From the NCBI RefSeq assembly GCF_014196625.1, contig NZ_JACIDZ010000002.1, positions 186,001-250,000 on the forward strand: a DNA stretch of 64,000 nucleotides, in the 5' to 3' direction. A program made the position numbers and the translations under genes. The stretch is from Martelella radicis (GTDB lineage Bacteria; Pseudomonadota; Alphaproteobacteria; Rhizobiales; Rhizobiaceae). Of this stretch, positions 1,379 to 33,632 are shown in pieces (the first letter of the stretch is position 1; each line of letters starts with the position of its first letter). The notes beneath the pieces were generated by a model. That model was not told the origin of the DNA, made no database searches, and saw nothing but the letters and a program-made list of their open reading frames with translations.

Positions 1379-2049
1379 ACACTGTCATCTTCGATTTCGA
1401 CGGCGTGCTCGCCGACAGCGAAATCATCGCGCTTTCCGAACTTCGGACCTCGCTTGAGGAATACGGAATCATCATGGACTGGGACGCGCTGGTCGAACAG
1501 TTCCTTGGCGCGTCGGTCCGACAAATCATCGCCTTTGTCGAACAAAGGGCAGGCCGTCCCGTCGACGCCGGTTTTCAGAAAGACTGGTACAAGCGGCTTT
1601 TCGCCAGCTACCGCGCCAGGCTGAAACCGATGCCGGGCGCTGCGGAAATGCTCGACCGGCTGGACGCGGCCGGCATCGACTATTGCATCGCTTCCGGCGG
1701 TTCCTACAAGCGGCTTGGGGTCGCGCTGGAATGCATCGGTTTTTCCGAGCGCTTCGCGGACCGCGCCTTCAGCGCCGATTCGGTCGAACACGGCAAGCCG
1801 GCTCCGGACGTCTTCCTCTATGCAGCCGAAAAGCGCGGCGCCTCCTTTGCCGACTGCGTGGTTCTGGAAGATTCCATTGCCGGCGTCACCGCTGCCGGAC
1901 GCGCCGGAATGCGTGCCATCGGCTTCGTCGGCGGCGGTCATCTCGAAGGCATCAGGCCGCTTCATGCCGACAGGCTGCGGGCAGTCGGCGCAAAACCTGT
2001 GCTCACTGGTCTCCGCGACTTTGAGGAAGCCGCCTTCGGCGGCGCCTGA
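1375..2049 (+). CDS. HAD-superfamily hydrolase (beta-phosphoglucomutase-like)
   Basis: 224 residues. All four HAD motifs are visible: DFDG at residues 7-10 (nucleophile Asp7, acid/base Asp9), a Ser/Thr motif around SGGS 107-110, Lys141 in HGKPAP and acidic ED 165-166 in VLEDSIAG. The helical cap lies between motifs I and II, as in subfamily I phosphatases and phosphoglucomutases. The start ATG overlaps the SorC gene stop (ATGA), implying translational coupling. The likely role is dephosphorylating or isomerising a sugar phosphate linked to the SorC effector; the substrate is unknown. It is probably not part of the downstream thiamine operon, which has its own promoter. Confidence 0.85.
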   Translation: MNTVIFDFDGVLADSEIIALSELRTSLEEYGIIMDWDALVEQFLGASVRQIIAFVEQRAGRPVDAGFQKDWYKRLFASYRARLKPMPGAAEMLDRLDAAGIDYCIASGGSYKRLGVALECIGFSERFADRAFSADSVEHGKPAPDVFLYAAEKRGASFADCVVLEDSIAGVTAAGRAGMRAIGFVGGGHLEGIRPLHADRLRAVGAKPVLTGLRDFEEAAFGGA

Positions 2050-2054
2050 GCCGG

Positions 2055-2083
2055 TTGACACGGGGACCAAAGCCCGACAGAAT
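2055..2083 (+). promoter_or_regulatory. promoter of the TPP-riboswitch thiE operon
   Basis: A perfect -35 TTGACA (2055-2060), a 17-base spacer and CAGAAT (2078-2083) as -10. The predicted transcription start, around 2090, falls immediately before the riboswitch P1 stem. It begins 5 bases after the HAD gene stop. Confidence 0.6.
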
Positions 2084-2091
2084 CAAGATTA

Positions 2092-2177
2092 TTCCGAGGG
2101 GAGCATCCTGCGATGCTGAGATGGCAATGAGCCGGACCCTTGAACCTGATCCGGGTCATACCGGCGTAGGAACGGAA
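2092..2177 (+). promoter_or_regulatory. TPP riboswitch (THI element) 1
   Basis: P1 is closed by TTCCG (2092-2096) with CGGAA (2173-2177). The pyrimidine-sensing core CTGAGA is at 2116-2121, and the pyrophosphate-arm consensus (ACCCTTGAACCTGATCCGGG followed by CATACCGGCGTAGG) follows. These are the invariant THI-box elements. Downstream, CTCC (2215-2218) can pair with GGAG (2229-2232) of the leader-ORF Shine-Dalgarno, suggesting translational control by masking of the ribosome binding site. Confidence 0.93.
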
Positions 2178-2240
2178 AGACGGTCAATCCCCTTGTTTTC
2201 GCTTCCGCGCCGGTCTCCGCAATGCCATGGAGGTCGTCAT

Positions 2241-2297
2241 ATGTCGTTGGAATTTCGCCGAATTTGCCCTGTCTGGGCACCCGGGGTGCAGCCATGA
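2241..2297 (+). CDS. 18-codon leader ORF coupled to thiE
   Basis: The ORF encodes MSLEFRRICPVWAPGVQP and ends in a TGA that overlaps the thiE start as ATGA (2294-2297). It has the best Shine-Dalgarno of the region, GGAGG at 2229-2233, 7 bases from its ATG, whereas thiE itself has no clear one. I infer that ribosomes load here and pass to thiE by translational coupling, so the riboswitch would control thiE through this ORF. The peptide has no family resemblance I recognise. The alternative is a longer thiE starting at 2222, but that ATG has no ribosome binding site. Confidence 0.5.
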   Translation: MSLEFRRICPVWAPGVQP

Positions 2298-2956
2298 GAA
2301 CGGTCGATTACCGTCTGAATGCGCTGGTCGATGCCGGGCTGGTGGAGACCGCCCCGCTTGCCGAACTGGCGCGACACGCCGCCGAAAACGGCGCGACCCT
2401 GATCCAGTACCGGGACAAATACGCCAAGACGCGCCTGATGATCGAACGCGCCGTCGAGATCCGCAAGGCGCTGGAGCCGACCGGCGTTCCGCTGGTGATC
2501 AATGATCGGGTGGATGTGGCTCTTGCCGCCGAAGCCGCAGGCGTCCACCTCGGCGCCGACGACATGCCGTCCGAAACCGCGCGTCGCCTGCTCGGACCGG
2601 ACGCCATCATCGGGCTGACCGTCAAGAGCGCGTCCGACGGCGCGAGGGCCTCGACGGCGCCGGTCAACTACGCCTGTATCGGCGGCGTCTTCCATACGCT
2701 TTCCAAGATCAGCTCCGACCCGCCCGTCGGCGTGGAGGGTTTTCGCGCGCTGCGTCGCGGCCTCAGAAGCGCCCGGCCCGACCTGCCGGTCGGCGCGATT
2801 GCCGGGATCAAGCTCGAAAACGTGCCCGAACTGATCGCGGAAGGAGCCGACGGTATCGCGGTGATCTCGGCGATCTTTCACGCGCCCGACGTCGCCGGCG
2901 CAACCCGCGACTTCCGCAGCGCCATCGATGCGGCGATCGCGAACCGGGCGCGATGA
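2294..2956 (+). CDS. thiE: thiamine phosphate synthase ThiE
   Basis: 220 residues, the usual ThiE size, TIM-barrel fold. It condenses hydroxymethylpyrimidine pyrophosphate with thiazole phosphate to thiamine phosphate in the cytoplasm. Family motifs seen: QYRDK (38-42), VINDRVDVA (68-76), GVHLGADDMP (83-92), GLTVKS (107-112), the CIGGVFHTLSK segment (128-138, the family's phosphate-loop region) and GADGIAVISAIF (184-195). The start at 2294 overlaps the stop of the leader ORF; the TGA stop overlaps the TRAP permease start (ATGA at 2953). A TPP riboswitch upstream confirms the thiamine role. No thiD, thiM, thiG or thiC is in the window. Confidence 0.9.
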   Translation: MRTVDYRLNALVDAGLVETAPLAELARHAAENGATLIQYRDKYAKTRLMIERAVEIRKALEPTGVPLVINDRVDVALAAEAAGVHLGADDMPSETARRLLGPDAIIGLTVKSASDGARASTAPVNYACIGGVFHTLSKISSDPPVGVEGFRALRRGLRSARPDLPVGAIAGIKLENVPELIAEGADGIAVISAIFHAPDVAGATRDFRSAIDAAIANRAR

Positions 2957-4746
2957 CATCGACAGCGACCGAATACGGGGCCGCCCGGCTCGCCCGATGG
3001 CTGCGGACGGCGCTTTCGGCGACGGCCGCCGCCGTGCTGGCGGCGACGCTCGGGCTCGTTCTCCTCAGCGTCATCCTGCGCTACCTCTTTCAGAGCGGGC
3101 TGATCGGTACGGAAGAACTTGGCATGTGGCTGAATGTCGCGCTGATCGCTCTCGGCGCGCCGCTTGCCATGTCCGGCCCTCTTGCCATGCGGCTTGACCT
3201 GCCCCTCGGGCCAAAGGCCGAAGCCGCCGCAAGGGTGATTGCCGATGCCATAAGCCTGATCGCCGCCTTCGTTCTGGTCTTCGGCAGCGCCCGCGTCATC
3301 GCCCTGATCGGGGGCACATCGCCCACGCTCGGCCTGCCTGAATGGGTGCCCTTTGCCATGACCGCCACAGGCGGAGCGCTGATTGCCGCCATTCTGGCTC
3401 TCGGTCGGATCGGCGAGCGCCGCATCGCCTCGCTCGTGGCCTCCGCAATCCTTGCGGCCCTGGCCACCCTCGCCTGTCTTCGTATCACCTTCGAAACAAC
3501 CCTGCCGCCGAGCGCGGTGATCGCGATTTGCGCGGGTATCGGCCTTCTTGCGGCCGCGCCGCTTGCCCACGCCTTTCTGGCAGCCGCCATGGCCGCCATG
3601 CCGTTCGGCGGCAATCTGGCGGCGGAAACGATGGTGACCACCGCCGTCTCCGGCATGTCGCGCTTCCTGCTGCTCGCCATCCCGTTCTTCCTGTTGACGG
3701 GGGCGGCGCTTTCGGCCTCGGGCGCAGCGAAACATCTCGTGACCTTCGCGGCCTCGCTCGTTGGCCACAGGCGCGGCGGACTGGCGCAAACGGTACTTGC
3801 CACCGGCACGCTGTTTTCCGGCGCTTCGGGTTCTTCGGTCGCCAATGCCGTCTTTTCCGCCACAACCTTCCACCCCGAACTGGTGCGCCATGGCTACCGG
3901 GAAGCCCGCGCCGGCGCGATCATCGCCGCCTCTTCGGTGCTCGACAATGTTATCCCGCCCTCGATCGCCTTCCTGATCCTGGCGACAGCGACCGATCTTT
4001 CGGTCGGCAAGTTGCTTGTCGGCGGGCTTCTTGCTGGCCTATTGATGGCTGCGAGCCTTGCCATAGCCATCCATATGACAAGCCGCGAGCAGGGCGGTGG
4101 CCCGCGGGCGACGGGCAGTCAGCGGCGAGGCGCCTTCCTTGCCGCCCTTCCGGCCTTCGGATTGGGCATTATCGTGGTGTTCGGCATCCGCATCGGCATC
4201 GTCACCACGACGGAGGCGGCCGCTCTCGCCGCCGCCTATACGCTGGCCCTTGCCGTCTTCGCAAGGAACCGCAACACCTCGCTTTTTTCCGTATTCCGGC
4301 AGACGGCGGCCGAAGCCGCCGCCATCGGCCTTCTCATCGGCTCGGCAGGTCCCTTTGCCTTCCAGCTTGCCGTCGACGGCGTTGCCGGCATGCTGACGGC
4401 AGCCGCCGGCGCTTTCGGCAGCTCTCCCGCCGCCATCCTTGCCTTCGCGGTCCTCGTCCTGCTGCTGGCGGGTCTGCTGCTCGATATCGGCGCCGCCATC
4501 CTGCTGTTCGGGCCGCTGTTGCTGCCGCTTGCCACCACGGCCGGGATCGACCCGATCGCCTTTGGCGTCATCATCGTCACCACGCTGATGATCGGCGGGC
4601 TGACGCCGCCGGTCGGCATGCTGGTCCTGGTGGTGGGCGGCGTCGCGGATATTCCGGCCGGCGCACTCTTTCGCGCCGTGCTGCCGTATCTTGCCGCGCT
4701 TCTTGCCGCCGTCGCCCTTATCTGCGCCTACACCCTGTTGATCTGA
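2953..4746 (+). CDS. TRAP transporter fused permease (DctQ-DctM)
   Basis: 597 residues with many hydrophobic segments. The first ~165 residues have the four-helix DctQ layout with the typical VILRYLF and TEELGMWLN segments; from about residue 195 the protein is a DctM large permease (PFFLLTGAALSASG, SSVLDNVIPPSIAFLIL, GLTPPVGMLVLVV). Fused QM proteins are a known TRAP subtype. It acts in the inner membrane, taking up a ligand delivered by the periplasmic binding protein encoded next, driven by a sodium or proton gradient. Its ATG overlaps the thiE stop, placing it firmly under TPP-riboswitch control. The likely substrate is a thiamine precursor, breakdown product or thiamine itself, which is inference. 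Confidence 0.88.
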   Translation: MTSTATEYGAARLARWLRTALSATAAAVLAATLGLVLLSVILRYLFQSGLIGTEELGMWLNVALIALGAPLAMSGPLAMRLDLPLGPKAEAAARVIADAISLIAAFVLVFGSARVIALIGGTSPTLGLPEWVPFAMTATGGALIAAILALGRIGERRIASLVASAILAALATLACLRITFETTLPPSAVIAICAGIGLLAAAPLAHAFLAAAMAAMPFGGNLAAETMVTTAVSGMSRFLLLAIPFFLLTGAALSASGAAKHLVTFAASLVGHRRGGLAQTVLATGTLFSGASGSSVANAVFSATTFHPELVRHGYREARAGAIIAASSVLDNVIPPSIAFLILATATDLSVGKLLVGGLLAGLLMAASLAIAIHMTSREQGGGPRATGSQRRGAFLAALPAFGLGIIVVFGIRIGIVTTTEAAALAAAYTLALAVFARNRNTSLFSVFRQTAAEAAAIGLLIGSAGPFAFQLAVDGVAGMLTAAAGAFGSSPAAILAFAVLVLLLAGLLLDIGAAILLFGPLLLPLATTAGIDPIAFGVIIVTTLMIGGLTPPVGMLVLVVGGVADIPAGALFRAVLPYLAALLAAVALICAYTLLI

Positions 4747-4757
4747 GAGGAGACCTC

Positions 4758-5747
4758 ATGAAGACCCTCAATCGCCGTACGCTTCTGAAAGCCGGAACGC
4801 TCGCCGCGCTGGCGGCCCCCTATCTCGCCCACCCGGCCCATGCCCAGACCACCGTGACGGTCGCCTCGCTTCTGGGCGAGGACAAGCCTGAAACGAAAAT
4901 CTGGCGCTTCTTCGCCGAAAGGGCCGAGGAGCGGATGCCCGGCCGTTTCCGCTTCAACATTGTCACCAATGGCGCGCTCGGGGGCGAAAAACAGGTGGCC
5001 GGCAGCGTTCGCCTCGGTTCGGTACAGGCGAGCCTTTCGACCGTCTCGGCACTCTCGTCCTGGGTGCCGCAATTGCAACTCCTCGATCTGCCCTTCCTGT
5101 TCCGCGGTCCGGAGCATCTGCGGCGCGTCGTCACCGGCCCTGTCGGTGACGGTCTCAGGGAGCAGCTTGCAAGCGAGCGCTTCATCGTCGGCGGCTTCAT
5201 CGATTACGGCGCGCGCCACCTTCTGACGAAGACGCCGGTCACCCGACCGGAAGAACTCGAAGGCGTCACGCTCCGGGTCATCAACAGCCCGCTTCATACC
5301 GGGCTCTGGAGCGCGTTTGGAGCCGTTCCCGTCGGCATTCCGATTACCGAGACCTATAACGCGCTCTCAACCGGCGTCGCCGATGCCATGGACCTGACCA
5401 AATCCGCCTATGCCGGCTTCAAGCTCTATGAGGTCGTACCCTGCCTGACGGAGACCGGCCATATCCGCGCTTCGGGCGTGATTTACTTCTCACAAGGCTT
5501 CTGGAACGGTCTCGATGCCGAAACGCAAGGCCTGCTGATGGAAATCTCCGCGGAAGCGGCGCTCTATTTCAACGCGCTGATCGTGGAGGACGAAACGGCG
5601 GCAATGGAAACAGCGCGCGAAAACGGCGGCGAAGTGTTCCAGCCGGAAGACATGGACGCATGGCGGGCGGGCGCCAAAGGCGTGTGGACGGAGTTTGCCC
5701 CGGTCGTCGGCGGTATGGAGCGGATCGAAATGGTGGAAAACACCTGA
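4758..5747 (+). CDS. TRAP transporter substrate-binding protein (DctP family)
   Basis: 329 residues with a twin-arginine type signal (NRRTLLKAG, residues 5-13; cleavage near AHA-Q30). DctP family signatures: the segment around GALGGEKQ (72-79), LPFLF (111-115), and the ligand-binding loop LRVINSP (172-178), where Arg173 matches the conserved arginine that normally salt-bridges a substrate carboxylate, then PITETYNALSTGVADAMD. Shine-Dalgarno AGAGGAGA lies just upstream of the ATG. It is the last gene of the riboswitch operon. Retention of Arg173 suggests an acidic ligand, so a carboxylated thiazole or pyrimidine compound is a candidate (speculative). Confidence 0.88.
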   Translation: MKTLNRRTLLKAGTLAALAAPYLAHPAHAQTTVTVASLLGEDKPETKIWRFFAERAEERMPGRFRFNIVTNGALGGEKQVAGSVRLGSVQASLSTVSALSSWVPQLQLLDLPFLFRGPEHLRRVVTGPVGDGLREQLASERFIVGGFIDYGARHLLTKTPVTRPEELEGVTLRVINSPLHTGLWSAFGAVPVGIPITETYNALSTGVADAMDLTKSAYAGFKLYEVVPCLTETGHIRASGVIYFSQGFWNGLDAETQGLLMEISAEAALYFNALIVEDETAAMETARENGGEVFQPEDMDAWRAGAKGVWTEFAPVVGGMERIEMVENT

Positions 5748-5813
5748 GTTCGGGGATGCGTACCGAACAAGTGCTGAAATTCGCCACTTAAGGCTTGCGG
5801 GCGTTGCGGAATT

Positions 5814-5827
5814 GGTAAAAATTTACC
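5814..5827. promoter_or_regulatory. palindromic operator upstream of the LacI-type regulator
   Basis: GGTAAAAATTTACC is an inverted repeat of GGTAAA and TTTACC with a 2-base spacer, 28 bases before the regulator start. It shares the core GTAAAAATTT with the palindrome in front of lacE, so it is a good candidate for autoregulation. Confidence 0.6.
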
Positions 5828-5854
5828 CGACTCTCGATTGCAAGGCGTGAAGAC

Positions 5855-6919
5855 ATGGTGACATTGCGGGAAATTGCCAAGGCGGTCGGCGTTTCGGCCG
5901 GCACGGTTTCGCGCGTCCTGAACTATGACCCGACATTGTCCGTCTCCGAGGTCAAGCGCAAGGCGATCATCGAGACGGCCGAGGCGCTGAACTACGCCAC
6001 GCCGCGCAACCGCCTGCGGGCGAAGAATGGCCCGCTGCGCGCGCCGCGACGCAAGCAGGCGCCGCCGCGCATCGCAACGGTTCATTTTCTCGAACGCGAC
6101 GAGGAGCTGATCGATCCCTATTACATTGGCGTCCGGCTCGGCATCGAACGCCGCTGCCAGAACTATGGCACCGAGATCGTCAAGGTTTTCCACGGCGACC
6201 TTGAGGCCGAGGCGGCATTTTTGCACACCATGACCGGGGTGATCGCGATCGGCAAACACCGGCCGCATGAGATAGCCCTTCTCGAGGAGAGCAGCAGGCA
6301 CCTCGTCTTTGCCGATTTCGTGCCGGAAGAAGAGCGCTTCGACTGTGCGTCGAGCGACCTCGCCCTCGCCACGCGCACCATACTTGACGGGCTCCACGCC
6401 GCCGGATACCGCCGGATTGCATTCATCGGCGCCGAAGACCGGATCAGTCGCAAAGGCAGCCCATACAGCGAGGCGCGCTGCAACGCCTATGTCGAATGGC
6501 AGAAGGAGCACGGCTGTTTCGATCCGGCGCTGATCGCGCTCAATGACGACTGCAACAACGGCCAGAACCTGCGCCTTGAGGTCGGCTATGAAAACGCCCG
6601 GGGCCTGCTTGAGCATGCGGACCGGCCGGATGTGATCCTGACCGCCAATGACAATATCGCCATCGGCACGTCCCGTGCGCTGCAGGAGGCGGGGCTTTCC
6701 GTGCCCGGCGACATCGCCATTGCTTCCTTCAACGACATCCCGGTCGCCCAGTTCCTGACGCCGCCGCTTTCGACCATGAAAATTCCCGGCGAGGCCATCG
6801 GCGAATGCGCCGTCGACCTGCTTGTCGAACGCATCAACGGGCGCGAATACACCAAACGGGTAACCATTCCGGCGGAGATGATCTGGCGCGAAAGCTGTCG
6901 CCAGCCGCCCGATGCGTAA
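5855..6919 (+). CDS. lacR: LacI-family transcriptional regulator of the lactose operon
   Basis: 354 residues. The N-terminal LacI helix-turn-helix (TLREIAKAVGVSAGTVSRVL, residues 3-22) is followed by a hinge helix region near residues 45-60 and a periplasmic-binding-protein-like effector domain. The core resembles EbgR/GalR-type members (DPTLSVSE, EALNYATPRNR), whose known operators are AT-rich palindromes; matching palindromes lie before this gene and before lacE. It is upstream of and co-directional with lacEFGZK. Its stop codon TAA lies inside the downstream operator (6916-6928). The ligand is presumably a galactoside (inference from neighbours); the symbol follows the Sinorhizobium lacR-lacEFGZK layout. 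Confidence 0.85.
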   Translation: MVTLREIAKAVGVSAGTVSRVLNYDPTLSVSEVKRKAIIETAEALNYATPRNRLRAKNGPLRAPRRKQAPPRIATVHFLERDEELIDPYYIGVRLGIERRCQNYGTEIVKVFHGDLEAEAAFLHTMTGVIAIGKHRPHEIALLEESSRHLVFADFVPEEERFDCASSDLALATRTILDGLHAAGYRRIAFIGAEDRISRKGSPYSEARCNAYVEWQKEHGCFDPALIALNDDCNNGQNLRLEVGYENARGLLEHADRPDVILTANDNIAIGTSRALQEAGLSVPGDIAIASFNDIPVAQFLTPPLSTMKIPGEAIGECAVDLLVERINGREYTKRVTIPAEMIWRESCRQPPDA

Positions 6920-6928
6920 AAATTTTAC
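6916..6928. promoter_or_regulatory. palindromic operator of the lac operon
   Basis: GTAAAAATTTTAC is a perfect palindrome around a central A and overlaps the lacR stop codon. A further half-site-like TTTTACTAAA follows at about 6935-6944. The sequence to lacE is AT-rich, unlike the rest of the window. It is the likely site through which LacR represses lacE. Confidence 0.6.
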
Positions 6929-7036
6929 TTCTTATTTTACTAAATTTTTTATTGCGCAGTTTCCGTTTTTGACGTTAGCTTTTTGTCAGGCGGCAGGGAG
7001 AGTGCCGCCAGCGATCGTCCAAATGGGAGGAAACCA

Positions 7037-8302
7037 ATGGATACCGTGCTGAAGCGGATTACGGGTGCGGCCGTCGCCGGCGCCTCGATCATGAGTGCGT
7101 CGGCCGCCTTTGCCGGCGAAATAACGATCTGGTGCTGGGACCCGAATTTCAACGTCGCCATCATGAAGGAAGCGGGTGAGATCTATTCGAAGACCCATCC
7201 CGACACGACCTTCAACGTCGTTGACTTCGCCAAGCTCGACGTCGAGCAGAAGCTGCAGACCGGGCTTGCCTCCGGCACCACCAACGCGCTGCCGGATATC
7301 GTGCTGATCGAGGATTACGGCGCGCAGAAATACCTCCAGTCCTTCCCCGGCTCCTTCGCGCCGATGGATGATGTCGTCGACTATTCCGGCTTTGCCCCCT
7401 ACAAGGTCGAGCTGATGACGCTTGACGGCAAGGTCTATGGCATGCCGTTCGATTCAGGCGTCACCGGGCTTTACTACCGCAGCGACTATCTCGAGGAAGC
7501 GGGCTTTACCGCCGCCGACATGGAAGGCATCACCTGGGACCGTTTCATCGAGATCGGCAAGCAGGTGGAGGAAAAGACCGGTCACAAGATGACCTCGATC
7601 GACCTCAATGACGGCGGCATGACCCGCATCATGATGCAGTCGGCCGGCGAATGGTATTTCGATGAGAACGGCGACCTCGACGTCGTCGACAATCAGGCGC
7701 TGAAGGCCGCGCTCGAGACCCAGGCCAAGATGGCCAAGGCCGACATTCTCTACCCCGCGACCGGCTGGTCCAATTACGTCAACGCCTTTACCTCCGGCAA
7801 CACCGCCTCGGTCATCACCGGCGTGTGGATTACCGGCACGATCAAGGCCCAGGAAGCGCAGTCCGGCAAATGGCGCGTGGCGCCGATCCCCTCGCTCGAT
7901 GGTGTGGAAGGCGCTTCGCACGCCTCCAATCTCGGCGGATCGAGCTGGTATGTGCTCTCCTCCTCCGACGTGAAGGACGAGGCGATCGACTTCCTCAACG
8001 AGATCTATGCCAAGGATGTCGACTTCTACCAGAAGATCCTGACCGAACGCGGCGCCGTCGGTTCGCTTCTGGCCGCCCGCGAAGGCCCTGCCTATCAGGA
8101 AGCAGACCCGTTCTTCGGCGGCGAGGAAGTCTGGCAGAAGTTCTCCGACTGGCTGAACGAAATCCCGCCGGTCGACTACGGCATCTTCACCAACGAACTC
8201 GACACGGCGGTGACTGCGAACCTGCGTTCGCTCGTCGACGGCAAGCCGATCGACGAGGTGCTGAAGGCCATCGAACAGCAGGCGAAGTACCAGATCCAGT
8301 AA
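7037..8302 (+). CDS. lacE: lactose ABC transporter substrate-binding protein LacE
   Basis: 421 residues; secretion signal through about residue 28 (SASAAFAG), then an extracellular solute-binding protein family 1 fold (EITIWCWDPNFN, GLYYRSDYLEEAGF, PSLDGVEGASHASNLGGSSWYV). The start at 7037 is set by GGGAGG 6 bases upstream; an in-frame upstream extension has no support. It is the first gene of a lacE-F-G-Z-K cluster like that described in Agrobacterium radiobacter. It captures lactose or related galactosides in the periplasm. A 118-bp repeat separates it from lacF, which may stabilise its mRNA 3' end and allow higher binding-protein expression. Confidence 0.88.
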   Translation: MDTVLKRITGAAVAGASIMSASAAFAGEITIWCWDPNFNVAIMKEAGEIYSKTHPDTTFNVVDFAKLDVEQKLQTGLASGTTNALPDIVLIEDYGAQKYLQSFPGSFAPMDDVVDYSGFAPYKVELMTLDGKVYGMPFDSGVTGLYYRSDYLEEAGFTAADMEGITWDRFIEIGKQVEEKTGHKMTSIDLNDGGMTRIMMQSAGEWYFDENGDLDVVDNQALKAALETQAKMAKADILYPATGWSNYVNAFTSGNTASVITGVWITGTIKAQEAQSGKWRVAPIPSLDGVEGASHASNLGGSSWYVLSSSDVKDEAIDFLNEIYAKDVDFYQKILTERGAVGSLLAAREGPAYQEADPFFGGEEVWQKFSDWLNEIPPVDYGIFTNELDTAVTANLRSLVDGKPIDEVLKAIEQQAKYQIQ

Positions 8303-8403
8303 AAGGCTCAATGCCAGGGACGGACGATGTCTCGTCCGCCCCAGACTGTTCACGAGCCTGCTGACAAGCCTGTTGCAGACAAGCGCAACTCGCCAGCCAT
8401 TCT

Positions 8404-8521
8404 CCGTCACCCCGGACCTGATCCGGGGTCCAGGGCTATAAATCGCCTTTTGCGCCAGGGTCATCAACCTGATGGTCCTCGGGTTTTGGCCCTGGATGCC
8501 GGCTCAAGGCCGGCATGACGG
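8404..8521. repeat. dispersed palindromic intergenic repeat (Rhizobiales type)
   Basis: The 118-bp element is bounded by CCGTCA (8404-8409) and TGACGG (8516-8521). It holds two strong hairpins, CCCCGGACCTGATCCGGGG and ATGCCGGCTCAAGGCCGGCAT, and complementary GTCCAGGG/CCCTGGAT segments. This arrangement matches repeats common in alphaproteobacterial intergenic DNA. It fills most of the 307-bp lacE-lacF gap; the remainder shows no gene. Confidence 0.8.
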
Positions 8522-8609
8522 AAATGAGAGGTGAGGACCTTTGCCAACAGGCTGAGGCGGATGATTTGGCATTTCTCAAAAAAGGTCGCATGCGGCGCGA
8601 GGTCGAAAA

Positions 8610-9506
8610 ATGGTGACTGCCAGACCCGGCAATCTGAGACGGTTTTATGATGTGAACGGCTGGGCCTTCGTCGTCCCGGCCCTTCTCCTGATCGGCACGT
8701 TCATGTTCTACCCGATCATCCGCTCGCTGGTGCTCTCGTTCTATTCCGGACGGGGCATGATGATGAAGTTCGTCGGCTTCGGGAACATCGAGCGGCTCTT
8801 CAATGATCCGGTCTTCCTGCAGGCGCTGACCAATACGCTGACCTTCCTCGTCATCCAGGTGCCGGTGATGATCATGCTGGCGCTGATCCTCGCCAGCGCG
8901 CTCAACAGCCCGAAACTGAAGTTCCGCGGGCTTTTCCGCACCGCGATCTTCCTGCCCTGCGTTTCCTCGCTTGTGGCCTATTCGATCCTGTTCAAGAGCA
9001 TGTTTGCCACCGACGGGATCATCAATTCGACGCTACAGTCCCTCGGGCTGATCGACATTCCGATCCCGTGGTTCACCGATCCCTTCTGGGCCAAGCTGCT
9101 GATCATCCTTGCGATCACCTGGCGCTGGACCGGCTACAACATGATCTTCTACCTGGCCGCGCTGCAGAATATCGACAAGTCGATCTACGAGGCCGCCCGC
9201 GTCGACGGCGTGCCGAAATGGCGGCAGTTCCTGCACCTGACGATCCCGATGCTCAAGCCGGTGATCCTGTTTACCACCATCACCTCGACCATCGGCACGC
9301 TGCAGCTCTTCGACGAGGTATACAACCTGACCGAGGGCACCGGCGGGCCGGCCAATGCGACGCTGACGCTGTCGCTCTACATCTACAACCTGACCTTCCG
9401 CTTCACGCCCAATTTCGGCTATGCGGCAACGGTCTCCTACGTCATCGTCGTCATCGTCGCCATCCTGTCCTTCCTGCAATTCTACGCCGCAAGGGAGCGC
9501 AAATGA
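8610..9506 (+). CDS. lacF: lactose ABC transporter permease LacF
   Basis: 298 residues, MalF-type inner-membrane permease of a carbohydrate (CUT1) ABC transporter, with about six hydrophobic segments. The EAA loop that docks the ATPase is visible as YEAARVDGVPKWRQFLHLTI around residues 193-212. Its TGA stop overlaps the lacG start (ATGA). It forms the membrane channel with LacG, fed by LacE and powered by LacK. Confidence 0.88.
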   Translation: MVTARPGNLRRFYDVNGWAFVVPALLLIGTFMFYPIIRSLVLSFYSGRGMMMKFVGFGNIERLFNDPVFLQALTNTLTFLVIQVPVMIMLALILASALNSPKLKFRGLFRTAIFLPCVSSLVAYSILFKSMFATDGIINSTLQSLGLIDIPIPWFTDPFWAKLLIILAITWRWTGYNMIFYLAALQNIDKSIYEAARVDGVPKWRQFLHLTIPMLKPVILFTTITSTIGTLQLFDEVYNLTEGTGGPANATLTLSLYIYNLTFRFTPNFGYAATVSYVIVVIVAILSFLQFYAARERK

Positions 9507-30141: not shown

Positions 30142-30150
30142 TCAAGAAGC

Positions 30151-30250
30151 TCTAACGGGGTGCGGAACGCGAGATCCTTGCGTCAACCGCTGAGAGGTCA
30201 ATCACCAACCCGAGGAACCTGATCCGGCTAACACCGGCGGAGGGATTAGA
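30151..30250 (+). promoter_or_regulatory. TPP riboswitch (THI element) 2
   Basis: P1 TCTAA (30151-30155) pairs with TTAGA (30246-30250). The core GCTGAGAGG (30189-30197) and the pyrophosphate-arm consensus GAGGAACCTGATCCGGCTAA with ACACCGGCGGAGGGA are present. Downstream GACGCC (30265-30270) can pair with GGCGTC (30304-30309), covering part of the thiB Shine-Dalgarno, so translational control is likely. Confidence 0.93.
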
Positions 30251-30309
30251 CGCGTGAAACAGAAGACGCCCTTTTCCCTTTTTGATTGCGACAGCACGAA
30301 GGAGGCGTC

Positions 30310-31323
30310 ATGTCAGCTCACCATCTGAAAATAGCGGTTGCGTCACTGGCAATCGGATTGGCCGGCAGCGCCCACGCCCAGGATGGCAAGGTACTGACCG
30401 TCTACACCTATGAAAGCTTCAACACCGAATGGGGACCGGGACCGCTGGTGAAAAAGGCCTTTGAGGCCGAATGCGGCTGCACGCTCAAATTCGTCGGCGC
30501 GGAAGATGGCGTCGCGCTCTTGAACCGGCTGAAGCTCGAAGGGCGCTCCAGCCCTGCCGATATCGTGCTCGGGCTGGACAACAACCTGATCCACGAGGCG
30601 AAGGAGACGGGACTTTTTGCCGCATCCGGCGTCACCACGGAGAACCTCGACATTCCCGGCGGCTTCAACGACGACATCTTCGTGCCCTTCGACTACGGCT
30701 ATTTCGACATCGTCTACGACAGCGAGAGCATCGATACGCCGCCGACCACTCTCGATGAACTCGTCAACGGACCGGAAGACGAAAAGATCGTGATCGAGGA
30801 TCCGCGCACATCGACGCCGGGCCTTGGCATGCTGTTGTGGATGAAGGCGGTCTATGGCGATGCGGCGGCGGAGAAATGGGAGACGCTTTCCGGCCGCATC
30901 CTGACGGTCGCGCCCGGCTGGTCGGAGGCCTACGGGCTTTTCACCAGCGGCGAGGCGCCGATGGTGCTGTCCTACACGACCTCGCCGGCCTATCACCAGA
31001 TCGCCGAGGAAACCGACCGCTACAAGGCGGCCGACTTTAAGGACGGTCTCTATATCCAGATCGAGGTCGCCGGCATGACGGCAATGGCGGATGATCCGGA
31101 GCTTGCTCGTTCCTTCCTGGAATTCATGCTCACGCCCGGCTTTCAGGACGCGATCCCGACCCATAACTGGATGATGCCTGTCGCGCCGACGTCAGAGCCG
31201 CTGCCGGAAGCATTCCAAACAGCCGTGACCCCGGAAAAGACCCTGCAGTTCGCACCCGATGTGGTGGCTGAAAACCGGCAGGCCTGGATCGACGAATGGC
31301 TGAACGCCATGAGCGCGCGGTGA
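30310..31323 (+). CDS. thiB: thiamine ABC transporter substrate-binding protein ThiB
   Basis: 337 residues; signal peptide ending around AHA-Q (residues 22-25). ThiB motifs: [55 protein letters not shown] and the [14 protein letters not shown] binding segment. It captures thiamine or its phosphates in the periplasm for ThiPQ. The ATG at 30310 with GGAGG is preferred over the TTG 24 bases upstream. A TPP riboswitch precedes it. Confidence 0.92.
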
Positions 31324-31342
31324 TGGCGCCGGAACAACGCCC

Positions 31343-32965
31343 GTGTATCTGACGACGGCAGAATTCCGCCGCAACCTTTTCGCCGGGCTCATTTCGCTCA
31401 CCGGCGTCGCCTGCTTCATCGCAGCGGCGGTGGCGGCCCTGACCGGCTTCGGGCGGCTTGCCGATGCCGTCGCGGTCCTCGATGAGCCCTATGTCTGGCG
31501 CATTCTCCGGTTCACGCTCTACCAGGCATTTCTGTCGACGCTGATCTCTGTCGCGCTTGCCATCCCCGTCGCCCGCGCCATGGCCCGCCGGCCGCATTTT
31601 CCCGGCCGCATCTGGATTGTCCGGCTGATGGCCGTCCCGCTCGGACTTCCAGTTCTGATCGGCGCGCTCGGCATCATCGGCATATGGGGACGCCAGGGCC
31701 TCTTTAACGATGCGCTTGACCTGGCGGCGCTCGGCCGCCCGCTGCAGATCTACGGCCTTCAGGGCATTCTCATCGCCCATGTCTATTTCAATCTCCCCCT
31801 TGCCGCACGTCTGCTGCTGGCAGGTCTCGAACGCGTGCCTCAGGAATATTTCAAGACAGCGGCGATGCTGTCGATGCCGCAGCGCACCGTGTTCCGCTTC
31901 GTCGAATGGCCGGTGATCGCACCGCTCATTCCGGGCGTGGCCGGCCTCATCTTCATGCTGTGTGCCACATCCTTCACGCTGGTGCTGATCCTCGGCGGCG
32001 GACCGGCGGCGACCACGATCGAAGTCGCGATCTACCAGGCGCTGCGGTTTGATTTCAATCCCGCCCGCGCGGTCGCCCTTTCCGGGCTGCAGATCGCGGT
32101 GACGGCACTGGTGCTGGCGGCACTTGCCTTTCTGCCGCGCGCCGGCGATCCCGGTACAAGCGCCAGCAGCGAGCCAGGCCGGCGGCCGGACGCCGACCAT
32201 CGCGCATCACGCGGTATGGATTTTGCGCTGATCGCGCTGTTCACGCTCTGGCTGCTCCTGCCGCTTGCCGTCATCGTGGTGAAGGGCGCGGGCGCGGACC
32301 TTCTCGGGCTTCTCGTCGAACCGGTCTTCCTCAGAGCGACCGGAACGAGCCTTGTCATCGCCCTGTCGGCGGCATTGGCCTCGCTTGCCGTGGCGCTTTC
32401 CTTCATCACAGCCATCGGGGCAATCCGGGCGGTGAGGGAGCCCGGTCCCTTCTATCGCGGCAGCGCCGGCGCCATGTCGGCCATGGGGTCGCTGGTCTTG
32501 CTGGTGCCGCCCATCGTGCTCGGCACCGGCTGGTTTCTGCTTCTGCGCCCCTTCGGGCTGACAGATGCCGCAGCGCCTGCCATCGTCGCCGCGATCAATG
32601 CGCTGATGGCGCTGCCCTTCGTGTTGCGCGTGCTGCAGCCGGCCTTTGCCGTCCATCGGTCCCGCACGGCCCGTCTGGCCGCAAGCCTCGGGCTTTCCGG
32701 CTTTGCCCGCCTGAAGATCGTCGACTGGCCGGGCCTCAAGAGGCCGGTCCTGACGGCGCTCGCCTTTGCCATGGCGCTGTCGCTCGGCGATCTCGGCGCG
32801 GTCGCCCTTTTCGGCGGCGACCAGCTCACCACCCTGCCCTGGCTGCTATACAGCCGGCTCGGCAGCTACCGGACGGAAGACGCCAACGGGCTGGCGCTGA
32901 TCCTAGGCGCCCTCTGCCTTGTCCTGATGATCGCCGGCACCCGCGCTCCGGCAGCAAAGACCTGA
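31343..32965 (+). CDS. thiP: thiamine ABC transporter permease ThiP
   Basis: 540 residues with two homologous six-helix halves, as usual for ThiP. EAA-type motifs lie at YFKTAAMLSMPQRTVFRFVEWP (first half) and ARLAASLGLSGFARLKIVDWP (second half). It begins with GTG, 19 bases after the thiB stop; a 9-codon ATG frame overlapping the thiB stop (31323-31352) spans this start and may aid coupling. Inner-membrane channel for thiamine uptake. Confidence 0.9.
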   Translation: MYLTTAEFRRNLFAGLISLTGVACFIAAAVAALTGFGRLADAVAVLDEPYVWRILRFTLYQAFLSTLISVALAIPVARAMARRPHFPGRIWIVRLMAVPLGLPVLIGALGIIGIWGRQGLFNDALDLAALGRPLQIYGLQGILIAHVYFNLPLAARLLLAGLERVPQEYFKTAAMLSMPQRTVFRFVEWPVIAPLIPGVAGLIFMLCATSFTLVLILGGGPAATTIEVAIYQALRFDFNPARAVALSGLQIAVTALVLAALAFLPRAGDPGTSASSEPGRRPDADHRASRGMDFALIALFTLWLLLPLAVIVVKGAGADLLGLLVEPVFLRATGTSLVIALSAALASLAVALSFITAIGAIRAVREPGPFYRGSAGAMSAMGSLVLLVPPIVLGTGWFLLLRPFGLTDAAAPAIVAAINALMALPFVLRVLQPAFAVHRSRTARLAASLGLSGFARLKIVDWPGLKRPVLTALAFAMALSLGDLGAVALFGGDQLTTLPWLLYSRLGSYRTEDANGLALILGALCLVLMIAGTRAPAAKT

Positions 32966-32978
32966 GAAAGGACGAACC

Positions 32979-33632
32979 GTGACGCAATCTCCTTCGATCG
33001 TTCTGGACGCGGCCGCTCTCGCCCTCGGCGACAAGAACTTCGTCTTCGGCGGCGAAATCGCCGGCGGCAGCGTGACCGCGGTGACCGGACGTTCCGGGTC
33101 CGGCAAGACCACCCTCTTGAACCTGATCGCCGGCTTCGAAAAACCCGATAGCGGCCAGGTGCTGATCGGCGGAGCGGTGATGAACGATCTTCATGTAGCG
33201 CAGCGCCCGGTCACCGTCGTGTTTCAGGAAAACAATCTCTTCGCTCATCTCGACATCTTCACCAATACCGGCCTCGGCGTGGATGCGAGCCTCAGGCTGG
33301 ACCGGGACGGCAGGCGGCGCATCGGCGAAGCGCTCACCCGCGTTGGCCTCAAGGGCTTTGAAAACCGCATGCCTGCCTCGCTTTCCGGCGGAGAGCGCCA
33401 GCGCGCCGCCTTTGCCCGGGCTCTGGTGCGCAACCGTCCTGTTCTGCTGCTTGATGAACCCTTTGCCGCACTCGACCCTGAGATGCGCGGGGAAATGGGC
33501 ACACTCCTGCTTGAACTCCACGCGGAAACCGGCAATACCGTGATGATCGTTTCGCACGAGCCCGATGAAGTCGCGCAGATCGCCGATCATCGCCTTGTCA
33601 TCGAAAACCAGGCGATTTCGGCACGCTATTGA
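32979..33632 (+). CDS. thiQ: thiamine ABC transporter ATP-binding protein ThiQ
   Basis: 217 residues, compact single-domain ABC ATPase. Walker A GRSGSGKTT (residues 35-43), Q-loop VVFQENNLFAHL, signature LSGGERQRAAFARAL, Walker B VLLLDEPFAALD and H-loop VSHEPDE. GTG start with AAAGGA upstream. Powers ThiBP. The short length matches ThiQ and excludes TOBE-containing sugar ATPases. Confidence 0.9.
   Translation: MTQSPSIVLDAAALALGDKNFVFGGEIAGGSVTAVTGRSGSGKTTLLNLIAGFEKPDSGQVLIGGAVMNDLHVAQRPVTVVFQENNLFAHLDIFTNTGLGVDASLRLDRDGRRRIGEALTRVGLKGFENRMPASLSGGERQRAAFARALVRNRPVLLLDEPFAALDPEMRGEMGTLLLELHAETGNTVMIVSHEPDEVAQIADHRLVIENQAISARY

Follow-up and report, generated by a model that had tools for sequence, protein, structure and literature searches.

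A TRAP transporter operon under a TPP riboswitch in Martelella radicis and its relatives, a candidate importer for the thiazole half of thiamine

We analysed a 64,000-nucleotide stretch of the Martelella radicis genome (contig NZ_JACIDZ010000002.1, positions 186,001 to 250,000; contig C2 of genome G000 in our set, completeness 100), hereafter the window, and within it an operon that places a tripartite ATP-independent periplasmic (TRAP) transporter downstream of a thiamine pyrophosphate (TPP) riboswitch. All features of the operon lie on the plus strand. The aptamer, a THI element at 2087-2189, matches RF00059 over its full length (model positions 1-105) with 78.1 bits against a gathering threshold of 54.3, and is preceded at 2055-2083 by a sigma-70-like promoter (TTGACA-17-CAGAAT) that agrees with the consensus at 10 of 12 positions and is weak taken alone, the promoter-like pattern occurring once against a mean of 0.5 in shuffled sequence. 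Downstream follow a leader open reading frame (ORF) of 18 codons (2241-2297), thiE for thiamine phosphate synthase (2294-2956; TIGR00693, 173.1 bits against a cut-off of 145.1), a gene for a fused TRAP permease, dctQM (2953-4746; PF04290 and PF06808, passing TIGR00786), and dctP for a DctP-type solute-binding protein (4758-5747; PF03480). The combination of DctP with DctQ and DctM domains in one operon makes this a DctP-type TRAP system; DctP itself scores 153.6 bits against TIGR00787, below its cut-off of 175.05, passes the wider NF037995 with 180.9 bits against 50, and has its nearest named relative in Martelella lutilitoris (92% identity). The leader ORF ends in a TGA that overlaps the thiE start codon (ATGA), a second ATGA overlap joins thiE to dctQM, and 11 bases separate dctQM from dctP. 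Each of these elements, including both overlaps, had been named in a previous sequence-only reading of the window and is borne out here.

The leader ORF is preceded by a Shine-Dalgarno-like GGAGG (2229-2233), 7 bases before its ATG, which was read from the sequence and from a four-locus alignment (GGAG in L008), and the ORF is kept in frame in all four Martelella-type loci compared, with lengths of 18, 18, 18 and 19 amino acids. Reading 2055-2297 as one long ORF was rejected, as such a frame crosses the aptamer and has no family match, and the conserved frame is that of the 18-codon ORF. An intrinsic terminator was also rejected as the expression platform: the two terminator-like sites found in 1900-6000 (3.3 in shuffles) fall within dctQM and dctP. 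Since the leader holds no terminator-like site, we infer that control would be translational, with TPP binding to the aptamer predicted to switch expression of thiE-dctQM-dctP at that level; the fold of the leader RNA (z -1.27) is only slightly better than that of shuffles and yields no usable switch model.

Searching DctP neighbourhoods for THI elements, an analysis by which the proposed linkage could have failed as a peculiarity of one genome, we found that it recurs. A scan of genome contigs returned 146 DctP relatives, and among the best 80 loci kept, 19 are THI-linked: three are of the Martelella thiE-TRAP type, 15 have the order THI-thiX-thiY-thiM-thiE-thiD-dctQM-dctP (thiXYMED-TRAP), and one (L026) consists of THI-thiX-thiY-dctQM-dctP, the names thiX and thiY resting on permease and NMT1 families together with context. 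The riboswitches of the linked loci were recognised by pattern inside the locus in 14 cases and by Rfam in the genomes in all 19. Because genomes carry just two to five TPP riboswitches (50 genomes searched), a linkage of 19 in 80 is above chance. The remaining 61 loci show no THI element by pattern, and Rfam was clear in all 10 of those searched with it. Further THI-linked loci are present in G021, G031, G080, G089 and G193. Among 198 genomes drawn evenly from the family, all with a completeness of 95 or more, 34 carry thiE of the operon type and 21 a DctP of this kind, the two lying no more than 4 kb apart in nine (G000, G231, G100, G134, G203, G180, G193, G080 and G089); this draw overlaps the 80-locus set, with the DctP of G180 being that of L065 and G231 being close to L009. 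In G089 dctP sits inside the thi operon with dctQM in opposite orientation, G051 has a separate THI-dctQM-dctP unit (L164, riboswitch 61.8 bits), and in G056 the linkage perhaps runs across a contig end.

The pattern extends beyond the family. A DctP relative at E 1e-75 was found in 26 of 297 genomes drawn from the order, and eight of the 20 loci fetched are THI-linked, seven from one family (f10, genus g185) and one from another (G441, family f6). All seven f10 loci have the order THI-NIPSNAP-dctQM-dctP with riboswitches of 67-69 bits, the NIPSNAP gene being identified by tblastn in all seven and by Pfam in both of the two tested, and G441 carries THI-thiXYMED-TRAP; the other 12 loci lack a THI element by pattern, and the 11 checked with Rfam were clear. 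Of the plasmid records, 11 hold DctP and four were fetched, two of which carry THI-thiXYMED-TRAP, while the two from Rhodobacterales carry ssuA-ssuD-TRAP without THI. On a DctP tree of 92 distinct rows the THI label requires five changes, two of them forced by well supported branches; with the order-level rows added (85 rows after 34 near-copies and duplicates were dropped, on a bootstrap that had not fully settled) it requires eight, at least three of them forced. THI-linked rows are included in deep branches, so the link may be ancient and have disappeared several times, or it may have been gained repeatedly. On these comparisons, the TRAP operon under a TPP riboswitch is a real arrangement, recurrent in several lineages.

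Two side observations concern these loci. The NIPSNAP-family gene, of 110 amino acids, stands directly before dctQM at L175:4061-4390 and in the six other f10 loci, occurs beside the TRAP genes without THI in families f15 (L171:4032-4340) and f39 (L174:5691-5999), and was not seen in the 80-locus set or the other loci scanned. The records titled Bacillus subtilis SK6B4 (L042) and Marinicella sp. W31 (L007) have DctPs that nest among those of Pseudochrobactrum and Martelella, and their labels are probably wrong.

The composition of the thiamine regulon suggests what the transporter might carry. G000 has four TPP riboswitches, located before thiE-TRAP, thiM-thiD (contig C33), thiX-thiY (contig C9) and thiBPQ-type genes. 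The last of these is the second TPP riboswitch of the window (30146-30262, plus strand, RF00059 61.6 bits), which precedes ATP-binding cassette (ABC) genes at 30286-33632, named from ORF reading alone, and belongs to a separate operon of the same regulon. ThiXY is, by its known role, a system for the pyrimidine half of thiamine. The genome has one ThiM, neither ThiG nor ThiC, and no THI4 at E 1e-15, and should thus depend on an external supply of both thiamine halves or of thiamine itself. The TRAP system is the only TPP-controlled transporter of G000 without an assigned thiamine half; as pyrimidine and thiamine systems are already under TPP control and thiM needs a source of thiazole, it is the transporter left over. 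The sequence-only reading had proposed a transporter for thiamine itself, one of its precursors or a product of its breakdown. A precursor is the best reading, and the presence of thiXY (in the TRAP operon of relatives, under a separate TPP riboswitch in G000) and of thiBPQ-type genes elsewhere in the genome, together with the frequent loss of thiazole synthase described below, narrows it towards the thiazole half. Uptake of thiamine or thiamine phosphate would be consistent with TPP control and with two arginines that are invariant in DctP, but thiBPQ-type genes already stand under a TPP riboswitch of their own in G000, and the TRAP genes accompany thiM, thiE and thiD, which intact thiamine does not need; we consider this highly improbable. 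We propose that the operon encodes a TPP-repressed importer of thiamine's thiazole half, a TRAP system composed of DctP and the fused DctQM, and put the probability of this at about 0.5, slightly on the favourable side.

The distribution of thiazole synthase speaks to this proposal. We counted strong ThiG matches only (E below 1e-90, excluding partial hits of E 1e-5 to 1e-3) and compared counts by Fisher tests that ignore kinship, in a set of 50 genomes chosen for having a DctP relative and in the family draw. Among the 20 THI-TRAP genomes one has ThiG, compared with 11 of the remaining 30 (p 0.016). It is present in one of the 22 genomes with the TRAP genes in a TPP-controlled operon (the 20 plus G021 and G031) against five of seven with thiXYMED lacking TRAP (p 0.001). 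In the family draw, where 99 of 198 genomes are without ThiG, it is found in 4/21 genomes with DctP and 95/177 without (p 0.0046). Five THI-TRAP genomes (G001, G002, G011, G013 and G016) encode a full-length ThiC and no ThiG, and a sixth without ThiG (G005) has pieces of ThiC on two contigs. ThiG without ThiC occurs in none of the 50 genomes and THI4 in none of the 50 searched. THI-TRAP genomes that keep ThiC and lack ThiG point to the thiazole half.

Several counts weigh against it. Among the 34 genomes with operon-type thiE, ThiG occurs in one of ten THI-TRAP genomes and in eight of 24 others (p 0.22), or, divided by the presence of any DctP ortholog, in two of 16 and seven of 18 (p 0.13), neither difference being significant. 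G003 and G231, of one lineage, carry both ThiG and a linked TRAP system. A thi operon occurs with neither ThiG nor any DctP ortholog in G066, G125 and G226, and without ThiG and with an ortholog only outside the thi operon in G028, G032, G076, G165, G141 and G208 (G032 and G165 appear to be the same genome). A further eight genomes, with a distant thiE (45-53%), have neither ThiG nor TRAP (G082, G086, G099, G124, G152, G169, G171 and G196).

The same gene counts bear on a pyrimidine substrate, that is, a precursor or degradation product such as an acidic or sulfonated form of 4-amino-5-hydroxymethyl-2-methylpyrimidine (HMP), formylaminopyrimidine (FAMP) or aminomethylpyrimidine (AmMP). In relatives the TRAP genes stand in one operon with thiD, thiX and thiY, and the operon of L026 comprises THI-thiX-thiY-dctQM-dctP alone, which would suit such a substrate. 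ThiXY is nevertheless already present, and the gene missing from the five THI-TRAP genomes with full ThiC is ThiG, with the converse pattern absent from all 50 genomes, so that pyrimidine import appears quite unlikely.

Some thi genes of these genomes deserve a remark in their own right. ThiM of the thiXYMED operons (L010:1981-2724, L009:2019-2756 and others) is short and divergent, matching the HK profile in two parts with positions about 122-152 missing, and differs from the canonical ThiM of thiMD and thiMED operons; specialisation for a different thiazole, for instance cHET, an acidic carboxythiazole, is conceivable. A second ThiE-like protein of G000 (L006:1417-2070), above the PRK06512 cut-off and far below that of TIGR00693, may be a TenI-like tautomerase. 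At L125:1668-3399 thiX and thiY have no adjoining thiZ ATPase gene that we could see, as in the thiXYMED operons read.

DctP offers further indications of the ligand. The AlphaFold2 model of the window's protein (predicted local distance difference test score, pLDDT, 90.4) has an ordinary DctP fold, with Z 39.4 to 4pf8. Arg173, which the sequence-only reading had picked out as a carboxylate-binding residue, is found in the window's protein and does not vary across 52 aligned homologues, and in a wider alignment both Arg153 and Arg173 are invariant in 119 of 119 DctP rows, including five outgroup rows. The conserved arginine of DctP-type TRAP proteins serves the ligand carboxylate, and we take Arg173 to be the equivalent of the arginine of SiaP; the two invariant arginines suggest an anionic ligand. 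Positions 211-214 read Met-Asp-Leu-Thr in all 119 rows except four outgroup rows with Met for Leu, and three aligned PDB hits carry Glu-Asn there instead. Counted over distinct proteins with the five outgroup rows left out, the residue pair 149/237 is Asn-Trp in 47 of 48 proteins linked to an SsuD-like gene and in 22 of 22 linked to neither SsuD nor THI, and departs from it in one of these 70 against 23 of 38 THI-linked proteins (21 Asp-Arg, one His-Phe and one Tyr-His). By normalised mutual information, uncorrected for kinship, this pair is placed third among 27,966 pairs of columns. Asn-Trp is retained by the other 15 THI-linked proteins, which include those of f10, and the exchange suggests that specificity has changed in some of the THI-linked branch. 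Against a firm assignment to thiazole, the solved DctP relatives shown share only 20-29% identity, and the ligand could not be read from structures.

Gene context beyond the THI-linked loci introduces the sulfonates, and it too counts against the thiazole proposal. In 45 of the 80 loci DctP is accompanied by an SsuD-like gene, or a fragment of one, and there is no THI element; the other 16 of the 61 non-THI loci have no such gene. Of 95 DctP rows, 46 show an SsuD-like match in the locus at 40% identity or more (37 nearly full length, at least 330 amino acids, and nine fragments). On Rhodobacterales plasmids, ssuA, ssuD and the TRAP genes cluster with an ArsR-type or BigR-named regulator, and the isethionate TRAP protein 8t9t shares the DctP fold (Z 36.5, 24% identity). 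On this gene context, a sulfur-related branch of the TRAP family exists, and a sulfonate is a possible ligand when the whole family is considered. An SsuD ortholog (at least 80% identity) is found in 20 of 30 non-THI genomes and in none of the 20 THI-TRAP genomes, with homologues of about 48% in both sets. Two of those 20 non-THI genomes, G021 and G031, carry a THI-linked TRAP system as well as one of the other kind, together with the SsuD ortholog, a further point against the thiazole proposal. The SsuD-like protein scores 409 bits, below the curated cut-off of 518 for alkanesulfonate monooxygenase, and the SsuA-like protein also falls under its own, so that the family does not fix the substrate of the SsuD-like protein either.

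It is conceivable from these neighbours that the TRAP system imports a sulfonate or another organic acid as a source of sulfur or carbon, with TPP control deriving from the thi neighbourhood or from a TPP-dependent pathway that uses the substrate. Such control by proximity fits poorly with a riboswitch tie that holds in several lineages and, in f10 and L164, with no intervening thi genes, and the departure from Asn-Trp at 149/237 concentrates in THI-linked proteins; we regard this reading, the strongest of the alternatives, as unlikely. A sulfonated pyrimidine would likewise suit the sulfonate-type neighbours of other members, yet the SsuD ortholog, a possible desulfonating enzyme, is missing from the 20 THI-TRAP genomes and present in G021 and G031.

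Other features of these clusters were observed in passing. SsuA/NMT1-like proteins often found beside the SsuD-like gene (L016:2147-2998 and kin) have no signal peptide by eye and are perhaps cytoplasmic. In G125 and G226, which lack the TRAP genes, thiXYMED is followed by ssuA-like, ssuD-like and ABC permease genes (L148:6285-9622, with an intervening ArsR-type gene in G125, and L157:about 6550-9344), a possible replacement for the transporter. Genes of the gamma-glutamyltransferase family stand beside the TRAP genes at L190:7897-9489 (Thioclava, PF01019) and L181:5631-7466 (family f19, by ORF reading only). In the window itself, genes for a SorC/DeoR-type regulator and a haloacid dehalogenase (HAD) phosphatase occupy 362-2049, upstream of the riboswitch, and are also found in L007 and L008.

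Import of the thiazole half would proceed as follows, the direction of control, the transport and the ligand all being predictions. At low TPP the leader would be open and translation would begin at the leader ORF, with stop-start coupling carrying it on to thiE and dctQM. Periplasmic DctP would capture the thiazole precursor and DctQM import it by means of an ion gradient, after which ThiM, whose gene has its own THI element in G000 and shares the operon of the TRAP genes in many relatives, would phosphorylate the thiazole, and ThiE would condense the product with HMP pyrophosphate. The transporter belongs to the thiamine regulon repeatedly in evolution, one attribute to be expected of a carrier of a thiazole vitamer; its association with the loss of thiazole synthase reaches p below 0.02 in three contrasts, lacks significance in two and has many exceptions. 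Among thiazoles, cHET is the most likely ligand, because an anion would fit the arginines and cHET still has the hydroxyethyl group required by ThiM, but its naming is tentative. ThiE takes carboxylated thiazole phosphate. The available part of PMC5899164 reports that very low concentrations of cHET support growth of O. tauri and of a thiG mutant of E. coli, that O. tauri needs ThiM to use it, and that the systems transporting it are, in the authors' words, of 'unknown sequence identity'.

It is possible, though doubtful, that the operon encodes the first identified cHET importer, in a subfamily that spans several families of the order and Rhodobacterales, is divided into a TPP-regulon branch and a sulfur-acquisition branch, and has its ligand switch marked by the 149/237 exchange. 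Microbes exchange precursors of thiamine with one another, and a riboswitch-marked candidate makes import of cHET directly testable. If correct, a cofactor precursor would join the known TRAP substrates, and attention would be drawn to thiazole auxotrophy, given that 99 of 198 family genomes are without ThiG (THI4 having been searched in another set, 0/50). In the portion of PMC10881298 available, thiazole auxotrophy is called rare in one coastal study, and the vitamin B1 transporter genes tabulated (thiB, thiT, thiY, thiV, cytX, ykoF, thiPerm and omr1) include no TRAP system and none for thiazole. We found no TRAP system under a TPP riboswitch in the open literature searched, a search that did not extend to the 19 TPP-regulated transporter orthologs tabulated in the PMC3766115 supplement or to RegPrecise, and none in the available parts of PMC9870897, PMC12661815, PMC6478431, PMC10470507 and PMC10881298. 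An earlier bioinformatic mention in the supplement or in RegPrecise is possible. Both the riboswitch class and the transporter superfamily are known, and what is new is their combination and perhaps the substrate.

Compared with other DctP-type TRAP systems with fused DctQM, the operon described here shares PF03480, PF04290 and PF06808, the full DctP fold and the conserved arginine, and differs from the solved members shown in its low identity to them, in Met-Asp-Leu-Thr at 211-214 and in its TPP control. The isethionate protein IseP (8t9t) has the same fold and a sulfur-containing anion as ligand, and we know of no thiamine context for it. ThiW, a predicted thiazole transporter of a different protein type, would share with the TRAP system TPP-controlled uptake of the thiazole half. 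TPP-regulated thiW is mentioned in the available part of PMC6478431. There is a further likeness to the TPP regulons for thiamine salvage built from ThiXYZ, ThiBPQ, ThiM, ThiD and ThiE, with which the operon shares the aptamer class, the salvage enzymes and the logic of precursor uptake, and from which it differs in that the importer is a TRAP system.

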